Assembly (NCBI RefSeq): GCF_037392515.1 | Contig: NC_090291.1 | Span: 1,266,501-1,330,500 of the forward strand | Length of the DNA stretch: 64,000 bases | DNA from: Haliotis asinina | Taxonomy: Eukaryota; Mollusca; Gastropoda; Lepetellida; Haliotidae | Direction of reading: 5' to 3' | Shown here: positions 36,421 to 60,885 of the stretch, piece after piece | Numbering within the stretch: the stretch's first letter is position 1 | How the letters are laid out: the number at the start of each line of letters is the position of its first letter | Notes under the pieces: model-generated | Told to the model about the DNA's origin: nothing | Seen by the model: the letters and a program-made list of their open reading frames with translations, nothing else | Database searches by the model: none | Made by a program: the position numbers and the translations under genes

Positions 36421-36645
36421 ATGTTGACGAATAAAGTATTTGTCAAGAAGACGAAGAAAGGCAGTGTGATGAAAATAGTCAGGGAGCACTACCTCAGAGA
36501 TGACATAACGTGTGGATCGGAAATATGCAAATCTTGTGAACATTCTGATGGCTCCCAAGTGCTGGTGTCGGAGCCATCCACTGACAGCAGCCTGTGTCCG
36601 ACACGCCACTACATCGTCCCGGACACAAACGTTGTCTTGCATCAG
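36421..36645 (+). CDS. DIS3 exon 1
   Basis: Residues 1-75, ending in phase 0 at CATCAG before GTAATC. Carries [12 protein letters not shown], the Cys cluster and PIN acid D68 in PDTN. The ATG is the first in frame and matches the N-terminus of animal DIS3 proteins. Confidence 0.95.
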
Positions 36646-42600: not shown

Positions 42601-45600
42601 CGGGATGATGGAGTGGTTAAACTGTCAGTTTGTCTTCTTGAGAACTTTTGATTCTTCACACATAGTTTAACACTACAAAAGTAAAATAATCTTGAAACTC
42701 ACCTCATGTAGTATTTACTAATAGCCACTGTCTGATGGATCGTTTGTGTTTCAGATCTTTGTACAAGGTCTGCAGAACATGAACCGTGCCGTCCATGATG
42801 ATATTGTCGCAGTAGAGATGTTGCCAGAAGAGGAATGGAGTTGTCCGTCGTCCCTGGTGCTGCAAGATGAGGCTGATAAGACACTGGATGAAGAAGACCT
42901 AGCAGATGTGAGATACTGATCAGGGTGGACTTGACTTTGAACAGTGGGTGGGTACGGGTGACTCCCACAAGTAGGTGTGACCAATTAGGGCACAAACATG
43001 GTGTGTTTGTTGTGTTTAACAAATAAGCAAGTTGATATCCAAAATATCTTTGACTATATTACCTGTAGAGCTGACACTGCTGAACTGAATTTGGAACTAA
43101 AAGTGCATCGTGAAAAGGGATGAAATCCTGGGAGGATATGATGTAATAATGTATGACATGATGTGGGTCAAGGGTCAAGGGTCATTGACATGACCTTGTT
43201 GCATATGTCTGGTCGTTCATGTTTCTAAAATACCACTATATTTTACCACAAATGAATGATATAGTTTTTATCCACTGTGTGACAAAAGACTGAAAACATT
43301 CTAACATAGTCTGTACATGACATGATAGCAATGACTTGACCTTTGATATGAGTGTGCCATTACTTGGTTACAAATTAATAATTTTAAATGAACTATTCTT
43401 AATTTTAGTCATATTCAACACGTGCATTGACACAGATTATCTGAAAATTCGAAAAAATGTCCAAAATAGTCAAACGCCTTGGATCAATCAATCAATCAAG
43501 TTTATTTCATTGTAAGGCCTAAGGCCCATGTACAATACAAAATAAGTAAGTGTAATTATAACATAGTGGCAACTGAAGTCAGATTCGCATATATAAAGAA
43601 TGTAGTGACAATGCTTCCTAATGTAAGAAGAACAATCAGTTGCTGTTGAGAAGTTAGTGCATGATAATGTATTGAGAAAGTATTGCTGATCTAAGTAGTG
43701 CGGTAGTGCGGTAGTGCTTTGAAATACTTACAGTGCAAGGCATGATACATTTTACATTCAAATAAGAAGTGAAATTCATTTTCAACAAAATTATCATTAC
43801 AAATATTACAAAGTCTTTGGTGCCTCGGAACTCCGTCCAATCTACCGGTATTTTTATATATTGGAAGTGCACCAATTTGTAACATTGTTATTCTATACCT
43901 CGCACCTTTAGATTTCAAAAACGTTAAATATAGCTCAATGCAAAATACACTTTTAATACTGGAATACTTAGATGAAAATCTTTCAAAAACTGTTCCTCGT
44001 TGCCTACTCCTTGAGCTTCCCACACAAAATCAAAACCATAATTGAACAATAATTGCCTTGAATTTATCCACAAAGACTGGGTCCTGCTCTTCAGAGTGAT
44101 CTTAACGTTAAGAGGATCATTGTAACCACATTTTTTCATTGACCTGCTACAGTTCATGGATGTGCTGCTGCTTGTTTTAGAAAATATGCAATCACATGAT
44201 GATAAACTACTGGGTTTCCAGGAGAAACAGGAGAAAAACAAAGTCCCGAAGGATCTGCGACAACCGACTGGGAGGATTGTGGGTATTATCCAGAGAAAAT
44301 GGCGTCAGTACTGTGGGATGTTGAGACCATCACAGCTCAAAGAGGTACAGATCCAATCAGTTTCCTTACACTTAACATGGCACTCTATAATCTCATGGTT
44401 AATCTGCCTGCCTGAAAATCAGGAGGTGGTAGGTTTGATTCCTGTCATCCATGATGAAACAGTTACAGTACTTGTCTTTGATTTTAGGCATACGACATAT
44501 TGAGTGACAACCTGATCATACCAGGAAAACCCTAATTTTTCCTTATCCTGACTCATGCTTAATTGCTTACTCTCCTCTTCCTGGCGAAGGTAGTGGAACA
44601 CCTGAAATCCCTTGAAGTTCCCTTCTAAAAGAAGCAGAAATAAAATCACACTCACCCAAGTATTACCTCCCTTTTCCCGTGTACATGGTCAGCTGACCGC
44701 CATGCTACTTCACTTTCTCCCTATTGCCCGACGAGGGTGGCGGAAGGCAACTGGGGTCCCGTACACGACGATAAGTCTTTCATTCTTTCGATTTTTTAAA
44801 CTAAATTTGTGCTGTATACAGTCTTTGGCTTGTATGTATTTCTTATTATTATACAATTTTGTAATTATTGTGTCTATTTCTAAAACATATTTCGTCAACT
44901 GAGACTTAGTCTCAGTTGATGAAATCGTATTTTCAGTGCAGATTACGGCTGTCGGCGGTTGACCCGTATGTAAACCTTCATGTTCTGCTCAGATTTGTTG
45001 TGCATTAAATTGTCTGAAGCAGAATTCTTATTATATTTACGGTCTGTTCATGGACATGCTAGAGACAAGCAATGTCGACTCGCATTAGCCATGTCTAAAT
45101 CTAATGAGACAAAGTTGGGTAACCGTTTAATTGTTGATGCTGAGATTCATTCCAGACAGAAGCCAGACGTATCTCCAAGGTCGTGTCCAGGGTCAGGTGA
45201 GTCCCAAGACTCCCAAGACTCAGAAGAGATCATCCGTTGAGACAGGACCGTCTCAGACTAAGAAAATTAAGAAGTCGAACTTGAAGTCGTCATCTGCAAG
45301 ATCATCGCAGAATCATCCCTCACTGATAAAGAAGTCATTCGGGGAGGAGATAGTCAATATTTTGACAAGTCTTCGTTAATGATACGGAGTGAAGACACCA
45401 TGCATCGGACATCGGCAACTAGATCGACACCGACGGCATCTTCAACACCTCATCTACAACAGACATCGCAGACTGCATTCATGAACATCGTAGACAACTC
45501 TTGAACACAGTCGTCAATGCACACGCCACATGCATTCGACACAGGCGTCTTCATGCAACAATTCACAACGCAGATGATGAACTTTATGGAATGAAGATAG

Positions 45601-48600
45601 GAAGAGGACTGTTGACTGTGAATCAGCGAGAGCATTCATCTAGACCAGCTGACCGTCTGAGGATGAAGAGGAGGTGCACGCATGCACTCCAGAAGATCCA
45701 GGAACTGATCATCAGATCGCAGCACAGAGAAGGATATACCCATGCCAAGTGAGTGCACTCACACAAGCCGCCATACTCTGATGAGTGACGTCATGTGCTC
45801 GTGTGAGTGCACTCGTGGATGGACTCTTCAGCATAGAATGTCTCCTTCAGTCTCCCCTATTTATAGAAGACGTATGCAGTTATCCTCCCCTTCGGACTTA
45901 GACTCATGCAGTCGGGATCATCGGTGATCTTTGGATTCATCTTTCTATAGGAAGAATGAAGTTAGACATCAGCGTGAATTGTCACTGGAGGAAGTCTTAT
46001 CTCAGAAATCACTTCGTGGATCACAGATGTTTTAAACCTGGCTTCCCCATCTAAGGATACCAAGAAATTCAATGGTAGGGAGGAGAAATCGTCTTCTTCA
46101 TTTCGTCGCCCCTATGGAGGAAGTAGACGTACTTAGACATCAGGAAGATCATATAGGGGCAGTGGAGGAAATAAACGTTGAAGATAAGGTTCGGAATGAC
46201 TGGAGTCTTCCACCCCCAGCCGTTCCCATACAACCATTTCAAGTGGGTGGACGTCTCCAACACTACTGTGAAAATTAGGGAATCCTCAATGACAACTATG
46301 TCATAAATATTCTACGAGACAGCTACAAGGTTCCGCTGGAGGATACGCCGCCGCTCACAAAACAACCACTTTTATGTAGACGCATCTCTACAAGGATGGG
46401 GAGCTCATCTGGGAAACGAGGTAGCAGCAGGAATCTGGAACAAAGCGGAACAAGCTCTTCACAATAACCAGTTGGAAATGAAAGCAGTCATTCATGCCAT
46501 TCACCACTGGTCGACAGCATTGAGAAACAAGTTACTAATGATCTACATGGACAACTCAACAGTAGCGTTTTATATAAACAAACATGGATCAACAAGATCA
46601 CTATCACTGCTATGCCTAACATTTCAACTGTTCAACCTAGTTGACAGTCTGAATCTTCAAGTAAAAGCATGTCACATACCAGGAGCATGCAACGTCATGG
46701 CAGACGCCTTATGTCATCCCCTACGTCCATCTCCAACAGAATGGATGCTGCATTGGGAAGCGTTTCATCTAATCAGTCAAACTTTCGGATCACCGCAAAT
46801 AGACCTATTTGCAATGAGAGTCAACAAACAGACAACAACCTTTGTGTCGCCAGTACCAGATCCCCTAGCCAGGGCAACGGACCCTCTCAGCATTCCATGG
46901 GAAGGACTAAATGTGTAGGCGTTTCCCTCTCCAGTACTGTTGCCAAAAGTCATCTAGAAAATCAGACAAACAAAGAGGTTACAACTGATTTTGGTCGCGC
47001 CTTACAGGCCAACGAGAGGTTGGTTTCCAACACTTGTAAAAGAGCTAGGACAACCAACACTACAGTTACCAGAGTGGAAGAATCTTCTCATTCATCCCCT
47101 TACTAAACAAGTGCGAACCATCGTTATTCCATCTTCATGTATGGACCGTATTATAACTTGTTTGAAACGCAGAGGATATTCAGCAAGAGCAGCGAAAACA
47201 GTCATCCTAGCTTTAAGGAAATGCTCTCTCACACTTTATGATGACAGATGGAAATGGTTTGAGACATACGCCAGGAAAAGGTGATTTTTGGCGAACAAGG
47301 CAACTTATCCTCAAATAGTCAGTCTAAAGCTCTGAAAGGTTCTACATTATCTACATACTTAGCTGCTCTCAGCTCAGTCATCACCGTGGGAACAGGGACC
47401 AAACTGACTAAAGTACCAGAGCTCATTGCCTTACTACGTTCGTTCAAGTTGGAAGATCAACATCACAGATTTAGAGCTCCAGCATGGGATCTAAATATTG
47501 TACTCCAACATCTAACAAGTGATGCATATGAACCACTTGATCAAACTTCAGTTGAAATGTTGACTCAAAAGATGCTATTTTTACTTGCTTTGGCTACAGC
47601 AACAAGAATATCAGAAATTCATGCTCTAGACTTTAATTGAACGAGTTTCGACACAAGTCACCAGGAAACAGCTCATTTAGGTCTAAGATGGGATTTCATA
47701 GCAAAGAATCAATTGCCAGGTCAACCGGATAGACAGTTCCGTATACCGGCTTTGTCTTCAATCTCAAGAATGCATGATACACAAGATTTACCATTATGTC
47801 CAGTGAGAGCATTGAAAATATACATTGCACGTACCAAGTCTAGAAGACAACTGTTTAAGCACCTATTTATCCGTATATCTACTGAGACACCCATGGAAGT
47901 ATCCCACAACACTATCTCAGTCTGGATCAGAGCTGTTATACTTAGAGCATATAAAGCAGCAGGATTAAACCCTCCATGAGCCTCTAATCCACATGAAGTC
48001 AGAGCTCTAGCCTCTACACTAGCGCTACATGGTAATTGCTTGTTATCTACTATTATGGAAGGCTGTTTTTGGAAGTCAAATACAGTATTCGCCAACCATT
48101 ATCTGCGAGACATAGCCACAGAGGACGTCACTGGCATTCATCAGTTTGGACCACTTGTTGCTGCTCAGCAACTAACAGTTCCCCGATGACGCTGACTTAA
48201 CTCACCAGATTTATCACGTGACTTATGGAAGCCAGACGCTGTGCGGAGTATTTTGGTGGAAAGTCTATGTGCACATCTTGAACAGACTAGCATGAGTGAT
48301 TAGGACCTTGCATTCATTATGAAGGTAATTAAACATGAAGAAAGATAGCAACTAGTTCCGATTGTTATATCGTGATATTTAGTTACATCAGAAACTAACA
48401 AGACACTAGCTGTATTAGTGTCATCATTTACCAGTCAACAAAACCTTTTTTCGACTGGATGTGATTCCCCCCAAAATCTACAATGAATACGAGAAGAATA
48501 AGACTGAATTATCGCCGTTGCAAGTTCCCGTTAAGGGGGGAAAATATTGGACGCAATTGACAGCAGAATCCAGCATGGATTGACCCACCACCATTTCGAT

Positions 48601-51600
48601 TCTGTAAGCAATTAAGCATGAGTCAGGATAAGGAAAAATATGTAATTTTCTGAATAAAATTAATATTTTATACTTATCCTGACTCATGGCGAAAGCCCTC
48701 CCAGCCTCCCCTCACAGACACTGTGAAATCTCGCATTCTTGCATTGGTTGAGTGTGATTTTACGTCCGCTTCTTTCAGAAGGGAACTTCAAGGGATTTCA
48801 TGTGTTCCACTACCTTCGCCGGGAAGAGGAGAGTAAGCAGTTAAGCATGAGTCAGGATAAGTATAAAATATCAATTTTATTTAGAAAATTACATTATCAG
48901 GGGTGAGGCTTAATATGGGAAAAGTATCCTTCATCTCACTGTCTGTTGAATAGTTTGGTTGAATGGCAAGTTCCAGATGTTGGGTTTCGTAAGTAACTGT
49001 AGCAGACAACTGGGAGAAGAAGATGCTACTTTACTACAACTATTGTTCTATACGGGAGAAGAAGATGCTACTTGATTACAACTGTTGTTCTATACGGGAG
49101 AAGAAGATGCTACTTGACTACAACTATTGTTCTATACAGGAGAAGATGCTACTTGACTACAACTGTTGTTCTATACGGGAGAAGAAGATGCTACTTGACT
49201 ACAACTATTGTTCTATACAGGAGAAGATGCTACTTTACTACAACTATTGTTCTGTATGGGAGAAGAAGATGCTACTTGACTACAATTATTGTTCTATATG
49301 GGAGAAAAGATGCTACTTGACTACAACTATTGTTCTATACGGGAGAAGAAGATGCTACTTGACTACAATTATTGTTCTATATGGGAGAACAAGATGCTAC
49401 TTGACTACTACTATTGTTCTTTACGGGAGAAGAAGATGCTACTTGACTACAACTTTTGTTCTACTTCAGTAACAATTTTCAAAGTGCATGTGCTTTTTGT
49501 GCTGTGTAGTTGGTAAACCATGTGTCATTATTTCAGAGTCGGCGTCATCTGTTTATACCAGCAGAGAAGCGTATACCTCGTATACGTATAGAGACCCGTC
49601 AAGCCGAACAGCTAGCTGGACAACGGATTGTCGTTGCTATTGACAACTGGCCGAAGAACTCCCGGTATCCACAGGTAAAATTTGAAACATCTTTCTGTTT
49701 ATCATGTGCTCGGACAGAGTGCATTTAAGTGGATATGAATTTTTCTCATTATTATTTTATAGACTAGTCATGTGTTATATTTTAAACCTTCAAATACAAG
49801 GAGAAATTTTGCTGAAGAGACATAGATCTGTATCTATATCCCCGAGTTTGGAACTTCAACCCGAGTCAGTGTCAAAGTTGTTTCTGTAGCTTGAAGAACT
49901 TGCAAGACGGGAGCGTAGTAAGCACAACAACTCTGTCTGCCAAACTGTCTGGCAGGAAATTCGATGTCAAACTTTCGTATTTGACAGCTGAACAACATTT
50001 TATAAATACAATACTAAATAGGAAAGAAAGGAAGTTGAAGGAGGTTTTCAATGCAGAGCATGATTGCTGCACAAGGAAAACTAAATCATACATTACTAAA
50101 TGTAAATAACTTTGGATACATAAGGGTTTAATTAGTAACATCTGGCTAAAAACATGTCAGATGTACCATGTTTAAAGATTCTCTGTGGTACAATTAACTT
50201 TATTATTTCCACCACAGTATGATTTCCAACCCTATGGGTAATACGCTTGAGGCTTGAGCCTTTGGTGTTAGTCCTGTCAGTTGAAATCTACAGCAGAGGT
50301 TAGTATTGAGGGTAGGCTCTCCACCAATGCATGCCTATCAACCATTACATGTCTATCAACCAATGCATGACTATCAACCAATACATGCCTATCAACCAAT
50401 ACTCTATGTACAGGGCCACTTTGTGAGGAAGCTGGGTGCTGTCGGGGACAAGGAGACAGAGAACGAGGTGCTGCTGCTCGAACATGATGTCCCACATTCG
50501 AACTTCTCTGAGACTGTGCTCAGCTTCCTGCCTAAGATGCCGTGGAGCATCTGTGAGGATGTGAGTAGATTGTCTTAAGCTGTGCTGCATGAAAGGGGTA
50601 CAGCCACTGAGCTGTGTGGCTATGTGAAGTATGTTAATCCATTGTGTTATATGAAAAGCTTGTACGTCAACTGATTTGGACAGAGCATGCGTGTCCATCA
50701 TCTTGTGGAGAGGGTTTTGCAAGGAAGACATCAGTCAATATTTACGACACTGCATAATGTATTTGTTTGTAAATCTTATCTATTGTGTCTATGAACAGTA
50801 AATATCATGCAAAAAAATATATACTAGTTCATAACTTTACAGCCATATTTCCAGGCATGACTGACCAATCTAAATGTGACATTATTCAGTATCATGATGG
50901 TATGTCTGGTGTGATGGTATGTCTGGTGTGATGGTATATCTGTTGTCATGGTATGTCTGGTGTCATGTGTCATGGTATGTCTGGTGTCATGGTATGTCTG
51001 GTATGTCTGTTGTCATGGTATGTCTGGTGTCATGGTATGTCTGGTGTCATGGTATGTCTGTTGTCATGGTATGTCTGGTATGTCTGTTGTCATGGTGTGT
51101 TTGTTGTCATGGTATGTCTGTTGTCATGGTATGTCTGGTGTCATGGTATGTCTGTTGTCATGGTATGTCTGGTGTCATGGTATGTCTGGTATGTCTGTTG
51201 TCATGGTGTGTCTGTTGTCATGGTATGTCTGGTGTCATAGTATGTCTGTTGTCCTGGTATGTCTGGTGTCATGGTATGTCTGGTATGTCTGGTGTCCTGG
51301 TATGTCTGGTGTCCTGGTATGGCTGGTGTCCTGGTATGGCTGGTGTTCTGGTATGTCTGGTGTCATGGTATGTCTGGTGTCATGGCATGTCTGTTGTCCT
51401 GGTATGTCTGATGTCATGGTATGTCTGGTGTTTTGGTATGTCTGATGTCATGGCATGTCTGGTGTCCTGGTATGTCTGATGTCATGGTATGTCTGGTGTC
51501 ATGGTATGGCTGATGTCATGGTATGTCTGGTGTTCTGGTATGTCTGATGTCATGGCATGTCTGGTGTCCTGGCATGTCTGGTGTCTTGGCATGCCTGTTG

Positions 51601-54600
51601 TCATGGTATGGCTGGTGTCCTGGTATGTCTATGTCCTGGTATGTCTGGTGTCCTGGTATGTCTGTTGTCATGGTATGTCTGGTGTCCTGGTATGTTTGAT
51701 ATGGTATGGCTGGTGTCATGATATATCTGGTGTCATGGTATATCTGGTGTCATGGTATGCCCATTTCTGGTACCTGCTATGATATTGCTGGAATATTGCT
51801 CAAAGTAATGTAAAAGCATTCTCACTCACTCACTCACTCCATGTAGGATATGAAACATCGCCAGGATCTACGCCACATCACAGTGTGCAGCGTCGATCCT
51901 CCTGGCTGTACCGACATTGATGACGCCCTTCATTGTCGCAACTTAGACAACGGCAACCTGGAGGTTAGTTGATCTTTCAGTTATCATCATGTATACGTCA
52001 TATGGTTAACTGTTGTTGACATGGTTACAGTACTAACGTAGGAGTTTGTCATCATACCACTGTCTTGTCTACACAGCGATCAGAGTGAAAGGATGATATG
52101 CTCTGTGGAATAATAAGCTGTGAAATATGACAGTTATTCCCGTACTTCTGGCCTCTAGTGTTTGTACTGAATAAACACAGAATTGTCAAACAGGTGATAC
52201 ACTACAAGGCATTACTTTATTTAGCATGTTCAATGCTGTTAATGGTCCACTGTGCCTTTAGATGGGCCTGTGATATGTTGGCATGGAATTCTGTGAAATG
52301 CAAAAGTGTGTGTAAAAACATTTGAATTTTGTGTTTGGAGTACAGTAAACAAAAAGTATATGCCCCCCCCACCCCCCCAAATCTTAACAGTGTATTTTGG
52401 GAACTTTTTGTGTAGAAGGATCGACATTCATGTGTCATCTTGTGCTGTCATTATTGTTTAGACCAGGATATCTCCACAGTTTGTTTGCCCTCAGTGGGTA
52501 AACAGTGAAAAAGACAAAAGATCTAATCGATGATATTTACTATCGGTGTCAGTTGCTGTACTTACCAGTCTGTTTATGATATGAAGCATGTTTTCTCCCT
52601 GGTGTAGGTTGGAGTTCACATTGCGGATGTGTCACATTTTATCCGCCCTGGCAATGCGCTGGACAAAGAGGCCGCTAACAGAGGAACCACAGTTTACCTC
52701 ACTGATCGGGTCAGTACAACCCAGTTGTAGTAGATGTGGAGCTACATTGTCAAAGTTCTCCTATCTTTAAGATGGTTCGTGCCATACGTTTACATCAACT
52801 CACGAGTGTCTTTGCCCTAAGAGAGCTTGAGAAATCTAGGACTAGGTCTTTAGAACTCAGTAGTAGTAAGATCAGATTGTGTGGATCTCTCTGTCAAATT
52901 GGCTGTTGCTGAGGTTTTGTGATTTGATACCTCTGAATGACTCAGAATCATAGAAAAATTGTTGTATCACTTATAGGTTAAAATTATTGAACATACTTCC
53001 TTCATCTCACTAACGTTTCTTTACAGAGAATCGATATGGTGCCAGAACTCCTCAGTTCAAACCTGTGTTCCCTGAGATGCAATGTAGACAGGTCAGTGTA
53101 CCCATGGTAACGGATGCCAAAGATGTGTGCTATACCTTAGAGGGTCATCCCTGAATAGCAAGATTAATTACAGATTGTCTTATAAAATTGCAAAATCTGT
53201 GATCTGGGGACAGTCTCCGAACCCCACATACCGTATGTATTCTAAAAAGCACCTGGTCTCTAATAAGCACCGGGCTCAAAGCAGCTCACTGGCACTTGCA
53301 CTATTTACACCCAGTAAGTGCAAAAAGCATAGGGTTTCTAATAAGGGGCTGGGTCAGGAAGTCTGTTGGAAAAATACGTGGACAGTTGCTTATTAGAGGA
53401 AATATGGTAGCCATTGATAACATGATATTTAACCTCTGGACAGACTGGCCTTCTCAGTGCTGTGGGAGATGACACAAAATGGGGACATTGTGAACACCAC
53501 CTTCACCAAGAGTGTCATCGATTCAAAGGTAGGACAGCATGTAAATCATTGGTCCTTTTGTTCAGACAGTAGTTAGTCAATACCTTCATTTACATGTCTT
53601 TATCTATGTCTTTATCCTGAACTCTACAAAATTTGATGTTACAAAATCATATTTACAGTCTTCCTGTAAGTCATGTTCCTTGGGACCACTACAGTGGAAG
53701 TTGATGGACATGAAGACCCCCAATGCTTTGTGGTGCTCAATACAAGATGAAGAACACCAGTAGTGTTAAGGCTGTCCTCACCCACCTGCCATGTCTGATT
53801 ACCATAAATAATGCCACTTCAGGCATAGCCACGTGAAATACCTGTGTGTCCTTAACATCTTTTCAGTGGTTCTTGTTAAAACAAATACTTGAGTAGGAGG
53901 AAGTTCAGAGTGTCCTCTTATCATGCTGACGTTAAAAAATTAAATGTTTGATTCTCCTTATGGGCATGGTGTTTTGGACGTCATTTCTGGTGTTCCTTGC
54001 CCCAGTATGACCGAAATATTGCTGATGGTCATCTGTCACTCACGCAGACATGCAAGCATGCAGTCACTCACACATGCACTCACCCACATTCATTTTTCTC
54101 TGCTTCCAGGCTTCACTGACATATGCTGAAGCGCAGATGAAGATAGATGATCCGACTCTGACAGATGAACTCACAGTCAGTTTACGGGGATTAAACAGAC
54201 TTGCAAAAATCTTGAAAAAGCGAAGAATTGACAATGGGTAGGACAAACGTTGGCTATCAGTATTTATCACCCAACCAACTGATATTAAGAAACACATGGA
54301 AATTAGCCTTGCCCATCCATCAAATTTCATTTTATGAACATATCTGATAAACCAATGGATATTGTTTTCAGAAACTTTTTGCTCCAAGTAGAGCTGAACA
54401 GTGAAACTTTAAAATGTAGAGTTTATTTCTTATTTCCATTGAATAAGATCTCTCATACAAATATTGATTGAAACATTTGTTACTAAGCTGTATTGTATGT
54501 ATGTTTCAGTGCCCTGAGCTTAGCGTCGACAGAGATCCGGTTCTATGTAGACAGTGAGACCCATGACCCTATAGAAGTTCAGACAAAAGAGCTTAGGTGA

Positions 54601-57600
54601 GTCGAATCACACAGTGACTCCAGACTGTGGTGATTGTTTGTTCGTTAAACTCATCAATATTCCAGCTGTGTGATGGTGATGTAAGAAATTGCATCTGGAT
54701 TAGGAAGTTCAGTGATTGACATCATGTGCACCAAGGTATATACCTAAGAGCTCTTGCAATCAGCCTCTGGCTTGTCAGATCTGTGTTTTAAGCTGTTGTA
54801 CCGAGGAATAATGTGATATAGTGTGTCTTGACCTCAATGTACCCATGAAAATCTGGGTGAGAATTTATCTTAAGCAGCCCATGCTTCTTTGTCAAAGGCG
54901 ACTAACAGGATCGGGTTGTCACATTCGCTGATTTTGTTGACACATATCATGTCCCAGTTAAGTAGAATGATTCTCATGCTGTTTATCATGGAATGGATAA
55001 GCTGTGGTTGGAGCTGAATTTGGTCAGTTTTTTTCCCACAGGGAAACCAACTCTATGGTGGAGGAGTTCATGTTGCTTGCTAACATCTCGGTTGCTGAGA
55101 AAACTCTCAAGGAATTCCCAGACTGTTCTTTGCTCCGACGTCATCCAGCTCCACCACCATCCAACTTCGAACCTGTCATTAGAGCTGCCAAGTCCAAGGT
55201 AATAGCAAAGACACCATCAGCTTGATTTGATTCCTGTCTGAAGTGACATTGTTTGATTTCTGTCTGAAGTGACATTGTTTGATTTCTGCCTGAAGTGACA
55301 TTGTTTGAAACCATACAAAAAATTTACTATTTGTGGTTTTTTTGCCCTGTCAGTTAAGTTTCTCAACATTTCTGTGTTGTATTGTTTTAAGGGTCTTGAC
55401 CTTGCTGTATCATCGGGGAAGGAACTTGCCGACAGTCTGGACAAGGCTGTGTTTCCTGACCAACCATTCTTCAACACCATGCTCCGTATCATGACCACTC
55501 GGTGCATGATGCAAGCTGTGTACTTCAGCAGTGGTACGCTACCATTTGAAGAGTATCAGCATTACGGCCTGGCTACACCCATCTACACCCACTTTACGTC
55601 TCCCATCAGAAGGTACTCCACTCTTGCATGCTTTACATCTCCCATCAGAAGGTACTCTGCTCTTGCCCACTTTACATCTCCCATCAGAGGGTACTCCTTT
55701 CTTGCACACTTTACATCTCCCATCAGAGGGTACTCCTCTCTTGGACACTTTACATCTCCCATCAGAAAGTACTCCACTCTTGCCCCACTTAAAGTCTCCC
55801 ATCAGAAAGTACTCCATCCACTCTTTCCCACTTTACATTTCCCATCAGAAGGTACTCCAGTCTTTCCCAATGTTACATCTCCCATCAGAAAGTACTCCAT
55901 CCACTCTTTGTCCACTGTACATCTCCCATCAGAAGGTACTCCACTCTTGCCCACTTTACATCTCCCATCAGAAAGTACTCCGCTCTTGCCCACTTTACAT
56001 CTCCCATCAGAAGGTACTCCACTCTTTCCCACTTTACATCTCCCATCAAATGGTACTCCACTCTTTCCCACTTTACATCTCCCATCAGAAGGTACTCCGC
56101 TCTTACCCCACTTTACATCTCCCATCAGAAAGTACTCCGCTCTTGCACACTGTACATCTCCCTTCAGAAAGTACTCCATCCACTCTTTGTCCATTGTACA
56201 TCTCCCATCAGAAGGTACTCCACTCTTGCCCACTTTACATCTCCCATCAGAGGGTTCTCTACTCTTACCCACTTTACATCTTCCATCAGAAGGTTCTCCA
56301 CTCTTGCCCACTTTACATCTCAGATCAGAAGGTACTCCACTCTTTCCCACTTTACATCTCCCATCAGAGGGTTCTCCACTCTTAACCCACTATACATCTT
56401 CCATCAGAAGGTTCTCCACTCTTGCCCACTTTACGTCTCCCATCAGCAGGTACTCCATCCACTCTTTCCCACTTTACATCTCCCATCAGCAGGTACTCCA
56501 TCCACTCTTTCCCACTTTACATCTCCCATCAGCAGGTACTCCATCCACTCTTTCCCACTTTACATCTCCCATCAGCAGGTACTCCATCCACTCTTTCCCA
56601 CTTTACATCTCCCATCAGCAGGTACTCCATCCACTCTTTCCCACTTTACATCTCCCATCAGCAGGTACTCCATCCACTCTTTCCCACTTTACATCTCCCA
56701 TCAGCAGGTACTCCATCCACTCTTTCCCACTTTACATCTCCCATCAGAGGGTACTCCATCCACTCTTTCCCACTTTACATCTCCCATCAGCAGGTACTCC
56801 ATCCACTCTTTCCCACTTTACATCTCCCATCAGAGGGTACTCCACTCTTGCCCTACTTAAAGTCTTCCTTCAGAAGGTGCACGACTCTTGTGCCACTTGA
56901 CATCCTATCAGAATCTGTTTTTGTTTTTAGTCTCTGACCATCTCATGTACAGACAATACATGAGGAGACAATGTGATATCTTTTCAGCCCACTTAAAACA
57001 GGGACACCATCCATATAATAATGGTGATTAACTAAATATAACACTTCATTTCCAGGACTTCTCAAGTAATTCGGAGGTTTAGTAGGCTGCCTGATACGTT
57101 CCGTGCATTGTATATTTTATTCACTTAACATTCACAAACACTGCTGCCGTGTACTGCACACCGCTTATAGTTGCGTGAGGATTGCTATGTGCGATTGACA
57201 AGACCCGTGGAGGTCCCGGGTAGAATAGGCCTTCAGCAACCCATGTTTGCTGTAAAAGGTGACTCAGCTTGTCGTAAGAGGCGACTAACGGGATCGGGTG
57301 GTCAGGCTTGCTGACTTGGTTGACACATGTCATCGATTCCCAATTGTGCAGATCGATGCTCATGTTGTTGATCACTGAATTGTCTGGTCCAGACTCGATT
57401 ATTTACAGACCGCCACCATATAGCTGGAATATTGCTGAGTGTGGCATAAAACTAAACTCACTCACTCACTGTTGGACAATTGCAAACATTTTCTGTCTTT
57501 GGGAGCTTTGATTCCTAATTGCACCAATATGAGGTTAAGCCAACTTCACACATAGATGAGATGAGTTGCCATGACACATTGCTATGCAACTTCTTTTCTT

Positions 57601-60600
57601 TGATGCAGGTACTCGGACATCATTGTCCATCGACTGTTGGCAGTGTGTATTGGAGCAGATGCCTCGTACCCAGCCCTCCTGGAGAAACACAAAACACAGG
57701 TACATTCCAGCGGATGCTGACAGCAGCCATGAAGGACCAGAGTGTCCCAAGCCATGACAGCAACACCAGTGTATGAAACTCCCCAGAACACGAAGGAAGT
57801 CCCCCGGGCTGCTAACTGAAAAATGTTGTTGGACCTGTTAACATGTAGCCAGCCCTGTATTGACAATAGGACACTGAGATAAGGTGTTAAAATAATGTAA
57901 TTAATGAATTACAAGTAGTGAGGTAAACCAACACGTCCAAAAGCTTTCTTGTTTTTTAAAAAAAGTAGTAGCCATTAAAAAACATAAGTGGGTGTACGCT
58001 GTTGATTCACTTACTGTCACTGCCAACTAAGTCTGAAAAGCCCCAGACAAGAACAACATTGTCCTTTGGCCTGTTTTCCCCTGTAGTCAATGACATGGTC
58101 AAATATATACTCTTGGAAAATGAATTGGCCCACAGGGCTGGCTATAAAATAAAATTGTAAGCCCACCTGGTAACTAGCAGATGCTATTTCACACACTGGC
58201 AACACTTAAACTGGGCTATAGAGTAGATTATATGATTGATCATGACTTCATGTGACAGTGAATCACTGCCATGGGATGAAGGAACATTTCTTCACTCTCT
58301 CTCACTGTTGGATATGGTTGTCTTGCAGTCCTTGTGTAACAACCTCAATTTCCGACACAAAATGGCGCAGTATGCTGGTCGGGCCTCTGTCAACCTCCAC
58401 ACTCACGTAAGTATTCTGGGCAACCAATCCATAACAACATGTGTCCACCGACCAGAAAAGTAATACCATGGTTACAGTAGTCATTCAACTGTCCTTCATG
58501 ACTATTGACCTGAAATGTTTTCACCCACCATTATAGTGTTACCATGGTTACAATGGCTCTTCATCATTGTCAACATTACATGTCACCACTCACCATTATA
58601 GTGTTACCATGGTTACAGTATGTTCTTCATGAAGAACTGACCTGTGAAGGTCCCGGGGTAGAATAGGCCTCCAGCAACCCATGCTTGACATAAAAGGCGA
58701 CTATGCTTGTCGTAAGAGGCGACTAACAGGATTGGGTGGTCAGATGACTTGATTGACACATGTCATCGATTCCCAATTGCGCAGATCGATGCTCATGTTG
58801 TTGATTACTGGATTGTCTGGTCCAGACTCGATTATTTACAAACCGCCACCTTATAGCTGGAATATTGCTGAGTGCAGCATAAAACTAAACTCACTCACTC
58901 ACTCCATGCAGAACTTTAGTCTTACAGTAATAGTCTTTCCATTGTTCTCTGTAACTATGACACCCTCCAAGCACTACTGCTGTGTTACTATGGTAACAAT
59001 TGTGTTTCAGTTCTTCATAACTTTGACAACCTCTACGCACTGCTGCTGTGTTACTATGGTAACAATTGTGTTTCATTTGTTCTTCATAATTATGACAACC
59101 GCCACACACTGGTGCTGTGTTACTATGGTTACGGTTGTGTTTCAGTTGTTCTTCAAGAAGCGAGTGGAGGATGAAGAAGGCTATGTGCTGTTTGTCAGGA
59201 AGAATGCGCTGCAGGTTCTAATCCCAAAATATGGTTTGGAGGGGACACTGTTCCTCAAATCAGATGACAGCGATACAATGTTTACATTTAATGAGGAGGT
59301 AAGTGACATAGTGCAACTGTTCACTGACAGAGCTGATTTCTATGTGGACAGTGATCCTATAACAGACTTAATGAACTGTATTCTGTGTGTCATGGTGACT
59401 GAACTATACACTATATTACCAGAATACTGTGTGCCACCCTGATCAACTGACAGTATTTGTCATTGCTTGTGCCATTAACCACAAGTTGCCTTGTCTAGAT
59501 TGATTTGCTGACTGTAACAGTAAACATTGTCTGTCTTGTTCCCAGTGCACCAGTTGAACCACCATGACTATTATTTTTATTATTAGTGTGGGACAGGTGG
59601 CCTTTGAATTTGGGCTTATGACTTGGGATGGGCATTAGGACTGCTTAAATGGTATGTTGTAGTACAAACTTCACAATACAATATATTGCCCTTTTCGCAA
59701 ATCAGTTCACCTGATACGATCGGTATTTTCCATGATTGGTAATTTTAGTGATGATGTACGCCAACACATGTCGCAATATTTCGCAATACAAAATTTTGGC
59801 AATACCCAACCCCACTGATGATCTGATAGGAACAAATTACCTTTCTTAAAGATATGCAAGGGATCTCATCACAGAACTGTTAAATATTAACTGTTGCTAT
59901 TCTTTGATGCGATTCTTATCATTTCCCTGTCACAACTTTGGACATGTTTGAGGCTAAGATAGGATATTTTCACAGCATACTCCCCCTCTTATGATGTGAA
60001 TAATATCCCCATTATTTTACGTGCAAGTATAGGTTAGCACTCACTCTTGTTTCCTGTTTCCTTGAGCTACAGGAGCAGACCCAGACTGGTGGGGGACACA
60101 CCTTCCACGTGTTTGACAGACTGGTTGTACAGCTCAGTATAGACAGGTCCAATGAACAACACATGAAACTCAGCATCAAGCTGGTTCAACCTCAGGTGAG
60201 AAGCCATCACTGGTTCAGTCTGTGGTGAGTAGCCATCACTGGTTCAGTCTCAGGTGAGTAGCCATCACTGGTTTAGTCTCAGGTGAGTAACCCTCACTGG
60301 TTCAGTCTCAGGTGAGTAGGCATTACTGCTCAGTCTCTGGTGAGTAGCCATCACTAGTTCATTCTCTGGTGAGTAGCCATCACTAGTTCGGCCTCAGGGG
60401 AGTAGCCATCACTGGTTCAGTCTCAGATGAGTAGCCATCACTGGTTTAGCCTCAGGTGAGTAACCATCACTGGTTCAGTCTCAGGTGAGTAGCCATCACT
60501 GGTTCAGTCTCAGTTGAGAGGCCATTTCTGGATCAGTCACAGGTGAGTAGCCATCACTGGTTCAACATCTGCTGGTGGCCACATCCGGTCCCATCTAGTT

Positions 60601-60885
60601 TGACAGGATTAACTGGTTGAGCATTAAGCCAGTTCAGCATTCGATGCGTACTAATTGAGCAATCTGACTTGTTTGAGGAGAATGTTATGGATACAGAGTG
60701 TGATATTATCCTGTGATATCTGCCATAGAATCCATGGTAATGAGATATATATTCAGCATTATCTTCCTGCAGCAACACCCATACCTACACACTAACTGTT
60801 CCAGATACCGGGTTTCAGTGTGGCCCCAGCTTCCACACAGGGACCTAATGATACAGAGCCACCCAACAAGAAGCGCAAGTCCTAA
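36421..60885 (+). CDS. DIS3/RRP44, exosome catalytic ribonuclease (23 coding exons, 948 aa)
   Basis: Catalytic subunit of the RNA exosome: processive 3'-to-5' exonuclease (RNB) and endonuclease (PIN), acting in nuclear RNA processing and decay. Exons found by splice sites and protein similarity join with consistent phase at all 22 junctions and give 948 residues, close to the 958 of human DIS3. Seen: an N-terminal basic segment with a Cys cluster (residues about 31-39); PIN acids D68, E96, D145, D174; two cold-shock domains (about 216-440); RNB with [12 protein letters not shown], acids D470, D476, D478, D479 (D478 aligns with the human catalytic Asp); [11 protein letters not shown] at 767-777; an S1 domain from about 831; and a basic C-terminal NKKRKS. 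No disabling change is seen. Introns carry several transposons and junction-derived minisatellites. DIS3L lacks an active PIN domain, so the intact PIN acids favour DIS3. Confidence 0.97.
37353..39327. mobile_element. TTAA-flanked non-autonomous DNA transposon in intron 1
   Basis: The ends are inverted: TTAAAGGGGCACTGATGCGG at the left and CCGCATCAGTGCCCCTTTAA at the right, matching over about 23 bases. TTAA at both outer edges is the target duplication typical of piggyBac-like elements. The 1.97-kb interior has no transposase-sized open frame, so it would depend on a helper. The family assignment rests on the TTAA and the end pattern only. Confidence 0.75.
39420..39482 (+). CDS. DIS3 exon 2
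   Basis: Residues 76-96, phase 0 at both ends, between TTTTTCACAG and GTAAGA. Encodes [20 protein letters not shown] plus one more Glu; that last residue, E96, is the second PIN catalytic acid. Confidence 0.93.
39824..39918 (+). CDS. DIS3 exon 3
   Basis: Residues 97-127 and two bases of codon 128. Contains [15 protein letters not shown] and [11 protein letters not shown] of the PIN domain, between TTTTTCAG and GTCAGA. Confidence 0.95.
40187..40374 (+). CDS. DIS3 exon 4
   Basis: Residues 128-190 plus one base. Carries [11 protein letters not shown] (D145) and LLTNDVDNK (D174) of the PIN site. The donor is GTAAGT. Confidence 0.96.
40725..40892. repeat. CATG/CATC/CACAC/CATA compound microsatellite (intron 4)
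   Basis: Successive runs of short C-A-rich units. Because most units lack stop codons, several overlapping His/Thr/Pro-rich open frames appear; none is a gene. Confidence 0.95.
41438..41511 (+). CDS. DIS3 exon 5
   Basis: Completes codon 191 and encodes [20 protein letters not shown] and on to residue 215, ending in phase 0 before GTAGGT. This is the end of the PIN domain and the linker. Confidence 0.93.
41578..41735 (-). repeat. Diverged family A-like repeat (intron 5)
   Basis: AACAGTATTCCAAATCTATG, GTAATGGAGCCTGGGCTCGA and CAACCCAAGGATTAACATC follow the order of a reversed family A element, with many changes. Confidence 0.5.
42412..42564 (+). CDS. DIS3 exon 6
   Basis: Residues 216-266, phase 0. 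Encodes the [20 protein letters not shown] start of the first cold-shock domain. Confidence 0.96.
42755..42907 (+). CDS. DIS3 exon 7
   Basis: Residues 267-317, phase 0. Encodes [19 protein letters not shown] and an acidic linker. The donor is GTGAGA. Confidence 0.96.
43475..44150 (-). mobile_element. LINE-type retrotransposon 3' fragment (intron 7)
   Basis: Minus strand encodes the C-terminal tail of a non-LTR reverse-transcriptase protein, with the Cys/His pattern [19 protein letters not shown] then ECKMYH, and upstream [17 protein letters not shown] in a shifted frame. The 3' end has AATAAA and a repeated TTGATT tail (43484-43499). It is a 5'-truncated, frameshifted, dead copy; the clade is uncertain. 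Confidence 0.8.
44222..44344 (+). CDS. DIS3 exon 8
   Basis: Residues 318-358, phase 0. Encodes [21 protein letters not shown] chose the acceptor GGGTTTCCAG rather than the upstream CTTGTTTTAG because only the former keeps frame with exon 7. Confidence 0.92.
44534..44666 (+). repeat. DIRS left inverted terminal repeat
   Basis: Starts ATTTTTCCTTATCCTGACTC and is about 90% identical to the reverse complement of the right end through AAATCACACTCA. The core CTTATCCTGACTCATG occurs four times in the element in alternating orientation. Confidence 0.9.
44888..44924. repeat. Imperfect palindrome inside the DIRS element
   Basis: ATTTCGTCAACTGAGA and TCTCAGTTGATGAAAT pair with one mismatch around a 5-base loop. 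It lies between the left terminal repeat and the remains of the coding region. Confidence 0.8.
45000..46229 (+). pseudogene. DIRS gag-like remnant
   Basis: Serine-, lysine- and arginine-rich open frames are broken by stops and frameshifts; one short frame reads [19 protein letters not shown]. The position between the left end and the reverse-transcriptase start suggests the gag ORF. No specific domain is recognised. Confidence 0.5.
46230..46918 (+). pseudogene. DIRS reverse transcriptase N-terminus fused to RNase H
   Basis: [11 protein letters not shown], then a stop at a likely Trp codon, then [20 protein letters not shown] resembles the start of DIRS reverse transcriptases. Near 46365 it jumps directly to the RNase H motif [12 protein letters not shown], followed by [15 protein letters not shown] and NVMADAL, the four acidic positions. 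The fingers and palm, including the YxDD catalytic motif, are absent. This is an internal deletion of the polymerase core. Confidence 0.82.
46991..48189 (+). pseudogene. DIRS tyrosine recombinase, interrupted
   Basis: Integrase-like core-binding part ([15 protein letters not shown]), then the catalytic Arg in [14 protein letters not shown] at 47992-48003 and the nucleophile Tyr in NHYLRD at 48100-48102. TGA codons at 47638 and 47977 and a frame change near 47280 break it. All four R-H-R-Y catalytic positions are still encoded, which suggests fairly recent decay. Confidence 0.88.
48617..48688. repeat. DIRS internal complementary region
   Basis: CATGAGTCAGGATAAG and CTTATCCTGACTCATG face each other around an AT-rich stretch that holds the complements of both outermost ends of the element (GGATAAGGAAAAAT for the left, GTAATTTTCTGAATAAAATT for the right). 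This is the template used to join ends in the circular DIRS intermediate. Confidence 0.9.
48741..48892 (-). repeat. DIRS right inverted terminal repeat
   Basis: Reverse complement of the left terminal repeat, extended outward by a roughly 30-bp AT-rich end (GTATAAAATATCAATTTTAT). That extension is echoed in the internal complementary region. Confidence 0.9.
49023..49462 (+). repeat. 42/39-bp minisatellite, about 11 copies (intron 8)
   Basis: The unit includes GATGCTACTTGACTACAACT and ATTGTTCTATACGGGAGAAG; some copies lack one GAA. All length changes are multiples of three, so several frames remain open and give repeated peptides such as [13 protein letters not shown]. It sits about 75 bases before exon 9 and is intronic. 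Confidence 0.95.
49537..49674 (+). CDS. DIS3 exon 9
   Basis: Residues 359-404, phase 0. Encodes [20 protein letters not shown] at the second cold-shock domain, between ATTATTTCAG and GTAAAA. Confidence 0.96.
50320..50400 (+). repeat. 18-bp tandem repeat before exon 10
   Basis: About five copies of CAATGCATGCCTATCAAC with point changes end a few bases before the exon 10 acceptor. Confidence 0.85.
50414..50560 (+). CDS. DIS3 exon 10
   Basis: Residues 405-453, phase 0. Encodes [20 protein letters not shown] and [10 protein letters not shown]. The donor is GTGAGT. Confidence 0.96.
50895..51765 (+). repeat. 17-bp minisatellite, about 50 copies (intron 10)
   Basis: The unit is GGTATGTCTGGTGTCAT, with variants TGTTGTC, TGATGTC and GTCCT. 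It contains no stop codon in any sense frame, so long repetitive frames of 165-186 codons arise; they are not genes. Each copy carries TGGTATGT, which resembles a 5' splice site. Confidence 0.96.
51768..51838 (+). repeat. SINE tail next to the exon 11 acceptor
   Basis: TGATATTGCTGGAATATTGC followed by a CTCACTCACTCACTC run: the 3' end of family B. The exon 11 acceptor ATGTAG follows at once, so the SINE tail forms the pyrimidine-rich tract. Confidence 0.85.
51847..51963 (+). CDS. DIS3 exon 11 (RNB active site)
   Basis: Residues 454-492, phase 0. Contains [16 protein letters not shown], the metal-binding aspartates of the RNB exonuclease site. Confidence 0.97.
52608..52709 (+). CDS. DIS3 exon 12
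   Basis: Residues 493-526, phase 0. Encodes [19 protein letters not shown] and [10 protein letters not shown] of the RNB domain. The donor is GTCAGT. Confidence 0.96.
53028..53092 (+). CDS. DIS3 exon 13
   Basis: Residues 527-547 plus two bases. Encodes [20 protein letters not shown]. The donor is GTCAGT. Confidence 0.96.
53229..53409. mobile_element. Small MITE-like element (intron 13)
   Basis: The left end TACCGTATGTATTCTAAAAA and the right end TTATTAGAGGAAATATGGTA are imperfect inverted repeats, and the interior repeats the phrase CTAATAAGCACC. It is about 180 bp with no coding capacity. The family is not assigned. Confidence 0.6.
53444..53528 (+). CDS. DIS3 exon 14
   Basis: Completes codon 548 and runs to residue 576. 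Encodes [20 protein letters not shown] and the KSVIDSK end. Confidence 0.96.
53985..54095 (+). repeat. Degenerate SINE fragment before exon 15
   Basis: TTTCTGGTGTTCCTTGCCCC, GAAATATTGCTGATGG and repeated CACTCAC suggest a decayed family B tail just upstream of the exon 15 acceptor. Confidence 0.5.
54110..54237 (+). CDS. DIS3 exon 15
   Basis: Residues 577-618 plus two bases. Encodes [14 protein letters not shown] and [19 protein letters not shown]. Confidence 0.96.
54510..54596 (+). CDS. DIS3 exon 16
   Basis: Completes Gly619 and ends two bases into codon 648. Encodes [20 protein letters not shown]. The donor is GTGAGT. Confidence 0.96.
54640..54985. repeat. Two old family A-like fragments (intron 16)
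   Basis: A reversed tail (CATCAATATTCCAGCTGTG) near 54640 and a forward head (AAGCAGCCCATGCTTC, GGCGACTAACAGGATCGGG) at about 54845-54985. Both are strongly diverged. Confidence 0.65.
55042..55198 (+). CDS. DIS3 exon 17
   Basis: Completes Arg648 and runs to residue 700. Encodes [20 protein letters not shown] and [16 protein letters not shown]. Confidence 0.96.
55224..55308 (+). repeat. 27-bp tandem triplet (intron 17)
   Basis: Three copies of a unit containing TGTCTGAAGTGACATTGTTT, about 25 bases after the exon 17 donor. Confidence 0.92.
55392..55612 (+). CDS. DIS3 exon 18
   Basis: Residues 701-773 plus two bases of Arg774. Encodes [17 protein letters not shown] and [18 protein letters not shown]. 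The donor is AAG followed by GTACTC. The last 30 or so bases and the donor are the first unit of a tandem array that fills much of intron 18. Confidence 0.95.
55585..56880 (+). repeat. Exon-18-junction minisatellite, about 31 copies
   Basis: Units of 39-44 bp, each containing ACTTTACATCTCCCATCAG followed by AGG, AAG, GGG or CAG and then GTACTCC. The first unit is the real end of exon 18 plus its donor; the rest are intronic near-copies. The first 21 units are mostly 39-40 bp and varied. The last ten or so are a homogeneous 43-bp form ending CAGCAGGTACTCC. An open frame runs to 56900 because the units lack stops. Confidence 0.95.
57203..57472 (+). repeat. Family A dispersed repeat (intron 18)
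   Basis: Near full length: ACCCGTGGAGGTCCCGGG through GGCGACTAACGGGATCGGG to a CTCACTCACTCACT end. Confidence 0.93.
57609..57699 (+). CDS. DIS3 exon 19
   Basis: Completes Arg774 and runs to residue 804. Encodes [20 protein letters not shown]. Its first bases, GTACTCGG, nearly match the GTACTCC that begins intron 18. Confidence 0.96.
58329..58406 (+). CDS. DIS3 exon 20
   Basis: Residues 805-830, phase 0. Encodes [20 protein letters not shown] at the end of RNB. The donor is GTAAGT. Confidence 0.95.
58463..59160 (+). repeat. Exon-21-acceptor-related tandem repeats (intron 20), split by a SINE
   Basis: Units of about 65-75 bp share TGTTACTATGGTTAC (or ACCATGGTTACA) and a TTCTTCA segment. The last unit is the genuine exon 21 acceptor and first exon bases; the copies at about 58978 and 59044 have GTGTTTCAGTTCTTC and GTGTTTCATTTGTTCTTC. 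A family A element splits the array. Confidence 0.8.
58637..58905 (+). repeat. Family A dispersed repeat (intron 20)
   Basis: GACCTGTGAAGGTCCCGGGG through GGCGACTAACAGGATTGGG to a CTCACTCACTCACTC end. It is inserted between units of the acceptor-related tandem array, so it is younger than that array's first expansion. Confidence 0.93.
59146..59298 (+). CDS. DIS3 exon 21
   Basis: Residues 831-881, phase 0. Encodes [20 protein letters not shown] and [14 protein letters not shown] at the start of the S1 domain. The donor is GTAAGT. Confidence 0.96.
60073..60195 (+). CDS. DIS3 exon 22
   Basis: Residues 882-922, phase 0. Encodes [20 protein letters not shown] and IKLVQPQ of the S1 domain. The donor is CAG followed by GTGAGA and is the first of a run of similar sites. 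Confidence 0.95.
60181..60568 (+). repeat. Exon-22-junction minisatellite, about 13 copies
   Basis: The 29-bp unit is CTGGTTCAGTCTCAG followed by GTGAGTAGCCATCA. The first unit contains the last 15 bases of exon 22 and its real donor. Nine of the later copies keep GTGAGT, a closer match to the donor consensus than the real GTGAGA. Confidence 0.95.
60805..60885 (+). CDS. DIS3 exon 23 (C-terminus and stop)
   Basis: Residues 923-948 and TAA. Encodes [16 protein letters not shown] and NKKRKS. The acceptor AACTGTTCCAG was chosen because it restores IPG, conserved after the PQ of exon 22; the upstream TTCCTGCAG would put unrelated residues in frame. Confidence 0.88.
   Translation: MPGFSVAPASTQGPNDTEPPNKKRKS

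Follow-up and report, generated by a model that had tools for sequence, protein, structure and literature searches.

Minisatellites anchored on splice junctions of the DIS3 (RRP44) gene in the abalone Haliotis asinina

The 5' splice site of exon 18 in the DIS3 (RRP44) gene of the abalone Haliotis asinina is followed, within its own intron, by a long run of near copies of itself, and the question raised by this locus is whether these copies are donors among which the spliceosome chooses, coding repeats held in reserve for the catalytic domain, or intron sequence that is removed with the rest. A sequence-only reading of the window (the whole stretch of DNA analysed, 64,000 nucleotides from position 1,266,501 to position 1,330,500 of contig NC_090291.1) had made the exon 18 splice site the first of about 31 copies, and had argued that the splicing machinery meets a long run of near-identical donors, the downstream use of which could add repeats inside the catalytic domain through a frame that stays open.

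The exon model of DIS3 was built by tblastn with human DIS3 as the bait, followed by a splice-site search in which the exon 21 donor, the exon 22 acceptor and the last exon were placed by hand (Table 1). The modelled protein has 100% identity over 100% of its length to the database protein named exosome complex exonuclease RRP44-like of H. asinina and contains the Pfam domains RNB, PIN_4, OB_Dis3, Rrp44_CSD1 and Rrp44_S1. Because the exon model matches this annotated protein, the array can be placed at the exon 18/intron 18 boundary, and the exon number proposed earlier is confirmed by the count of coding exons. Splicing from the first intron 18 donor gives exactly the annotated protein. Intron 8 contains, at about 44974-48186 of the window, open frames resembling a DIRS-type retroelement (a label taken from reading the translation).

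Table 1. Positions of the DIS3 gene, its relevant exons and the junction-anchored arrays (window coordinates unless a locus is named; a caret marks a splice junction)
Feature	Positions	Strand	Description
DIS3 (RRP44) gene	36421..60885	+	23 coding exons, 948 aa, 22 GT-AG introns
Exon 18	55392..55612	+	ends ...HFTSPIRR; donor AAG^GTACTC, phase 2
Intron 18	55613..57608	+	1996 nt, of which the array occupies ~1.29 kb
Donor-anchored minisatellite, intron 18	55588..56904	+	31 head-to-tail units, 39-44 bp
Homogenised 3' block of 43-bp units	56426..56855	+	units 22-31; CAG^GTACTC type in 8/10
Exon 19	57609..57699	+	starts GTACTCGGAC (RYSDIIVHR)
Acceptor-anchored array, intron 20	58940..59155	+	66-69 bp x 3.2, ends on exon 21 acceptor TTTCAG^TTGTTCTTCA
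Exon 21	59146..59298	+	DIS3 exon model
Exon 22	60073..60195	+	donor CAG^GTGAGA
Donor-anchored array, intron 22	60181..60564	+	29 bp x 13, starts on exon 22 donor
Exon 23	60805..60885	+	IPGFS...KKRKS stop; the model joins it to the first intron 22 donor
Donor-anchored array, Sushi exon	L017:5617-5865	-	67 bp x 3.7; PF00084, E 0.00017

Counted by their donors, the units of the intron 18 array number 31 at a spacing of 39-44 bp, and Tandem Repeats Finder reports the same interval with a period of 39, 32.3 copies, 87% matches and a score of 1521. Unit 1 is the end of exon 18 itself, the HFTSPIRR codons followed by the donor AAG^GTACTCC, and every unit carries 24 exon bases and 15-20 intron bases, that is, both sides of one boundary; the composition claimed in the sequence-only reading, the end of the exon with its RNB motif plus the donor, is thus borne out with about 24 coding bases. 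The GT that had been credited to most copies is present at the donor place in all 31, and AG^GT in 18 of them, the donor variants being AAGGTACTC and CAGGTACTC (8 units each), AAAGTACTC (6), AGGGTACTC (4), AGGGTTCTC and AAGGTTCTC (2 each) and ATGGTACTC (1). Since 12 of the 39 core columns are invariant, two given columns such as those of GT would both be invariant by chance with a probability of about 9%, which speaks neither for nor against constraint, and no claim of selection for GT is made. Units 22-30 are 98.3% alike in pairwise comparison, versus 84.1% for units 2-21 (39 nt, ungapped), a difference that points to a recent local expansion; over a 31-nt core the values are 97.8% and 88.2%. 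The edge units, 1 and 31, are no outliers. A 20-mer of the exon/donor core has 6 exact matches in the 1.14-Gb genome, all of them within the array.

The sequence-only reading had recognized one array in DIS3 and missed two sister arrays, in introns 20 and 22. For each of the 44 junctions of the 22 introns, the donor (30 exon and 20 intron bases) or the acceptor (20 and 30) was sought elsewhere in its own intron, introns of more than 3 kb being cut to the nearest 3 kb, and the other 21 introns served as the control. Three junctions recur in their own intron: donor 18 with a score of 71 (control at most 18), donor 22 with 58 (control at most 19) and acceptor 20 with 40 (control at most 26), the last by a modest margin over 35, the maximum of any cross-intron control; the own-intron scores of the remaining 41 junctions do not exceed 22. 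The intron 22 array keeps GT in 10 of its 13 units. The intron 20 array includes 10 bp of exon 21, and the copies directly upstream of the exon 21 acceptor have 88% (the nearest, by BLAST over 52 bp) and 84% identity to it; older, degenerate copies of the acceptor region lie 500-700 bp upstream, at 58464-58634, past a stretch judged SINE-like by eye. The upstream TTTCAG at 59011 would, if used, add 45 aa in frame. Random placement of the seven arrays in the gene with a unit of at least 15 bp and at least three copies (two-copy and simple-repeat rows left out) puts three or more of them on 8-30 exon bases with P = 0.003, on 5-40 bases with P = 0.009 and on 1-66 bases with P = 0.064; the overlap range was chosen post hoc, so that more weight rests on the junction test. 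An 18-bp x 4.4 array at 50323-50402 stops 11 bp short of exon 10 (50414), the acceptor junction of which does not recur above the background.

Tandem arrays are often mis-sized, and one amphioxus mirage (a minisatellite-like duplication of an exon-intron boundary) was judged to be misassembled in a draft genome (PMC3087553). That the intron 18 array is an assembly artefact, a repeat collapsed or inflated, is nevertheless very improbable given that its units differ (84.1% being the likeness of units 2-21), that it occurs at a single place of a 58-Mb contig and that two further arrays of other sequence are anchored elsewhere in DIS3, likewise at splice sites. The copy number is that of one assembly of one individual.

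The open frame that had been claimed is there: whichever of the 31 donors ends exon 18, no stop is met through exon 19. But the two other frames across the array have one stop each and are otherwise open, so that the open frame carries little information and reflects a G-poor unit (9.7% G). As for repeats in the catalytic domain, only donors 2-5 would, by translation, add a clean 13-aa repeat; the donors in frame number 13 of 31, donor 1 included, and the consequence implied for the catalytic domain is not supported. Changes in the 24 exon-derived columns of units 2-31 fall evenly on the three codon positions (13, 15 and 14) and comprise 37 nonsynonymous and 5 synonymous changes, where 55 to 17 would be expected if every base change were equally likely, which indicates no protein constraint on the intron 18 copies. 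The part of the array up to donor 8 of the hypothetical isoform was searched against 5.8 billion proteins, with 7999 candidates scored, and the best 120 of 296 matches were listed, with a top score of 59 bits. None of the 203 database proteins among the matches listed from this search and from that with RRP44 contains array words, and each has the motif TSPI[RSK] once. A coding function of the array is therefore rejected on the near-open other frames, the lack of constraint and the lack of an array-reading protein among the listed matches. The same observations bear on the possibility, for which human IFI6 is the parallel, that splicing draws on several of the copies as donors and yields 13-aa insertions in the RNB domain from intron 18 or tail-less isoforms from intron 22. 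This explanation has in its favor the GT of all 31 units and the freedom from stops through exon 19 whichever donor is chosen, but is unlikely in view of the unconstrained and mostly out-of-frame copies, the absence of the insertion from the 203 proteins among the matches listed, and the position of the insertion, which would adjoin the equivalent of human R780, an RNA-binding arginine and mutational hotspot (PMC4694891).

The strength of the donors was estimated by a PWM with vertebrate-like weights. By these weights none of the intron 18 array donors scores above 3.7, a value exceeded by 20 of the 22 authentic donors of the gene. The authentic donor 18 scores 3.5 and is the second weakest of the 22, next to the intron 8 donor (3.3); by pairing with U1 (-5.6 kcal/mol) it is the fifth weakest. 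Of the 31 donors, 16 (counting donor 1 itself) equal or exceed the score of donor 1, a further point for alternative donor use, and units 22-28 and 30 pair better with U1 (-7.1). Sites with a PWM score of at least 3.4 occur at 12.6 per kb in the array versus 9.8 per kb in other introns (1.3-fold); an exceptional donor density is thus rejected, and with copies so weak and a density so near to background, the intron 18 array is hardly the special run of competing donors for which it had been taken. The weakness of donor 18 and the better U1 pairing of the late units would suit a mechanism in which the run of donors concentrates U1 snRNP, aids the weak authentic donor and is kept for that reason. 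Such a role is improbable: in intron 22 a comparable array sits on a donor that is already strong (PWM 10.9), in intron 20 one sits on an acceptor, the weak intron 8 donor has no array, and the site density is as stated. For recursive splicing, in which a pyrimidine tract with AG^GT serves as a ratchet point, there is a crude score: as acceptors, units 22-28 and 30 score 3.4 versus an authentic median of 2.9 by a crude PWM. A literature search on recursive splicing gave no match.

Intron 22 differs from intron 18 in this respect. Eight sites with a PWM score of at least 10 lie in 370 nt of its array, compared to one in the 18.6 kb of introns other than 18 and 22, and the array is, by these weights, a special donor environment. 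Six downstream CAG^GTGAGT donors score 12.5 versus 10.9 for the authentic CAG^GTGAGA, which is a point for alternative donors and means that exclusive use of the first donor is not guaranteed there. The first donor yields the IPGFS tail, similar to the IPGIS tail of human DIS3; splicing from any of the 12 downstream positions, 9 of which have GT, would lead to a stop 9-10 codons past LVQPQ and truncate the C terminus. A pattern of three strong donors has its sole occurrence, across the window and the first 104 kb downstream, at window position 60251; its reversed control is absent from both. The intron 22 array is a better test case for splicing than the intron 18 array.

The age of intron 18 can be estimated from human variants. 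R780K and R789W of DIS3 are located at 73336064 and 73335930, respectively (PMC4694891), 134 genomic bases apart where only 26 coding bases are expected, which by our own arithmetic leaves a 108-nt human intron between codons 780 and 789. The abalone position falls within this 8-codon interval, and the abalone intron is therefore probably old; the array would then have expanded later, at the 5' end of a probably ancestral intron 18. The reverse order, in which intron 18 was born from the array when a proto-splice site AG^GT within an exon underwent tandem duplication and turned into intron (a Rogers-type intron gain), is a route proposed by the authors of the amphioxus mirages (PMC3087553), and exon 19 and intron 18 do share their first six bases, GTACTC. 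The match is partly forced by a conserved Tyr codon, the exon 19 acceptor is an ordinary pyrimidine tract and no repeat unit, and the human coordinates disfavor this order, so that intron gain from the array has very little probability.

The reading that best accommodates these observations, and one to be held with considerable confidence, is that the intron 18 array belongs with the mirages, as a minisatellite anchored on a junction, the extra copies of which are intronic, spliced out and drifting. Most likely it is neutral, like the two other mirages of DIS3, and leaves normal splicing undisturbed; the annotated protein agrees with use of the first donor. According to this model, a tandem duplication across the exon 18/intron 18 boundary would have come first, and slippage or unequal exchange would then have extended the repeat into the intron. 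The copy next to the exon would remain the real end of the exon and the donor used in vivo, being kept because its loss would destroy DIS3. The other 30 copies would belong to the intron and leave with it once the first donor has been joined to exon 19; they would drift and homogenize like ordinary minisatellite units, presumably with selective neutrality.

Structures of this kind are rarely described but known from amphioxus, a class that the sequence-only reading had not recognized. The mirages are tandem duplications, resembling minisatellites, that span exon-intron boundaries and have a unit length of 10-72 bp in Adh3. They affect 5' and 3' boundaries, carry AG/GT in many copies, are unstable in length (even somatically) and, as RT-PCR suggests, are regularly spliced; they were found in Adh3 and the globins BflGb6 and BflGb9 (PMC3087553), with TnC and PGBD5 added later (PMC3902484). 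As in the published descriptions of those cases, the units in abalone DIS3 span exon and intron sequence of a junction that recurs only in its own intron, both types of boundary are hit (donors 18 and 22, acceptor 20), GT is kept by the copies of arrays 18 and 22 in the proportions given above and a normal protein is still predicted. Mirage units evolve in concert inside the cluster, with the boundary units left out; in array 18, units 22-30 are more alike than units 2-21, but the edge units do not stand apart. Unlike the amphioxus cases, the abalone case is from a mollusc and has three arrays in one gene. Intron 18 has 31 units, compared to 3 and 6 in two haplotypes of BflGb6 (PMC3087553). 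Literature searches on DIS3 or molluscan splice-junction minisatellites showed none among the papers listed; the claim that no such case is described in DIS3 holds to that extent, although structures of this type have been published. Within the reach of these searches, abalone DIS3 is the first case in a mollusc, and in a new phylum, of a kind already known.

Human IFI6 (6-16/G1P3) has a minisatellite with a 12-nt unit in 26 copies, reportedly a supplier of multiple splice donors in work ascribed to Turri in 1995. Like IFI6, abalone DIS3 has a run of donor-like repeats at the 5' splice site of an exon; unlike abalone DIS3, IFI6 is described as using two downstream repeat units as donors (PMC4526556), a precedent for alternative donor use. 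Within the genus, intron 3 of the TSSK1-like gene of H. discus hannai holds a minisatellite with a 27-bp unit, the copy number of which varies between individuals; it resembles the DIS3 arrays in being an array of tens of copies of a similar unit length in a Haliotis intron, and differs from them in that the passages of the source drawn on here mention no overlap with a splice site (PMC6905558).

Beyond DIS3, the 200 kb downstream on the contig (L008-L027) contain 20 minisatellites, all in the first 103 kb, the remainder being a macrosatellite. Six rows (5 arrays) have a coding-like segment near the array edge; two arrays were inspected, which does not amount to a frequency. One is anchored on the donor of a Sushi exon (Table 1), flanked by phases 1-1 as judged by eye, with the exonic part of the unit ambiguous; the other (in L012) is not donor-anchored. 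A paralogous Sushi exon about 44 kb away (51513), with 73.6% amino acid identity over 53 residues, an identical intron start and no array reported, resembles the pre-expansion state, but its donor side scores 32 (control 39) and may hold a degenerate copy. The recurrence of edges was examined for 17 coding stretches, of which 15 are Sushi-like and 2 belong to another gene, with 34 edges, defined by BLAST or segment ends rather than by verified splice sites. The Sushi donor scores 47 versus a control of 30. The 86103 acceptor (54 versus 46) and the 87536 donor (49 versus 25) also exceed their controls, probably because of neighboring paralogous exons; the 86103 donor (29 versus 19) and the 74601 donor (26 versus 20) exceed theirs too. 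The macrosatellite extends from about 1434700 to at least 1528700 of the contig (L018-L027), with units of ~1709 bp, ~56 copies by spacing and a 111-aa open frame starting INIMEKFHLYAELYEAESR. The largest minisatellite of the window, 40 bp x 74, is located at 19574-22536. On the minus strand at 223-1488, 422 aa without interruption form an open frame that contains a receptor domain of the rhodopsin type (PF00001, E 3e-33).

With these arrays, splice-junction minisatellites have an example outside the chordates, and a single essential gene holds three independent ones. Intron 22 offers a natural test of how a spliceosome would choose the first of ten GT donors, six of the later ones being stronger. 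A more speculative proposal, for which the probability is low, is that abalone splice junctions are preferred birthplaces of minisatellites and that some of these, above all in intron 22, act as switches of variable length that set the isoform or the mRNA level. If junctions are such birthplaces, a measurable share of introns would have runs of authentic-looking donors or acceptors; if the arrays are switches, the downstream donors of intron 22, stronger than the real one, would lead to a truncated DIS3. If such arrays are common in abalone, they would contribute to intron growth and to variation in splicing, a contribution that gene annotation overlooks.
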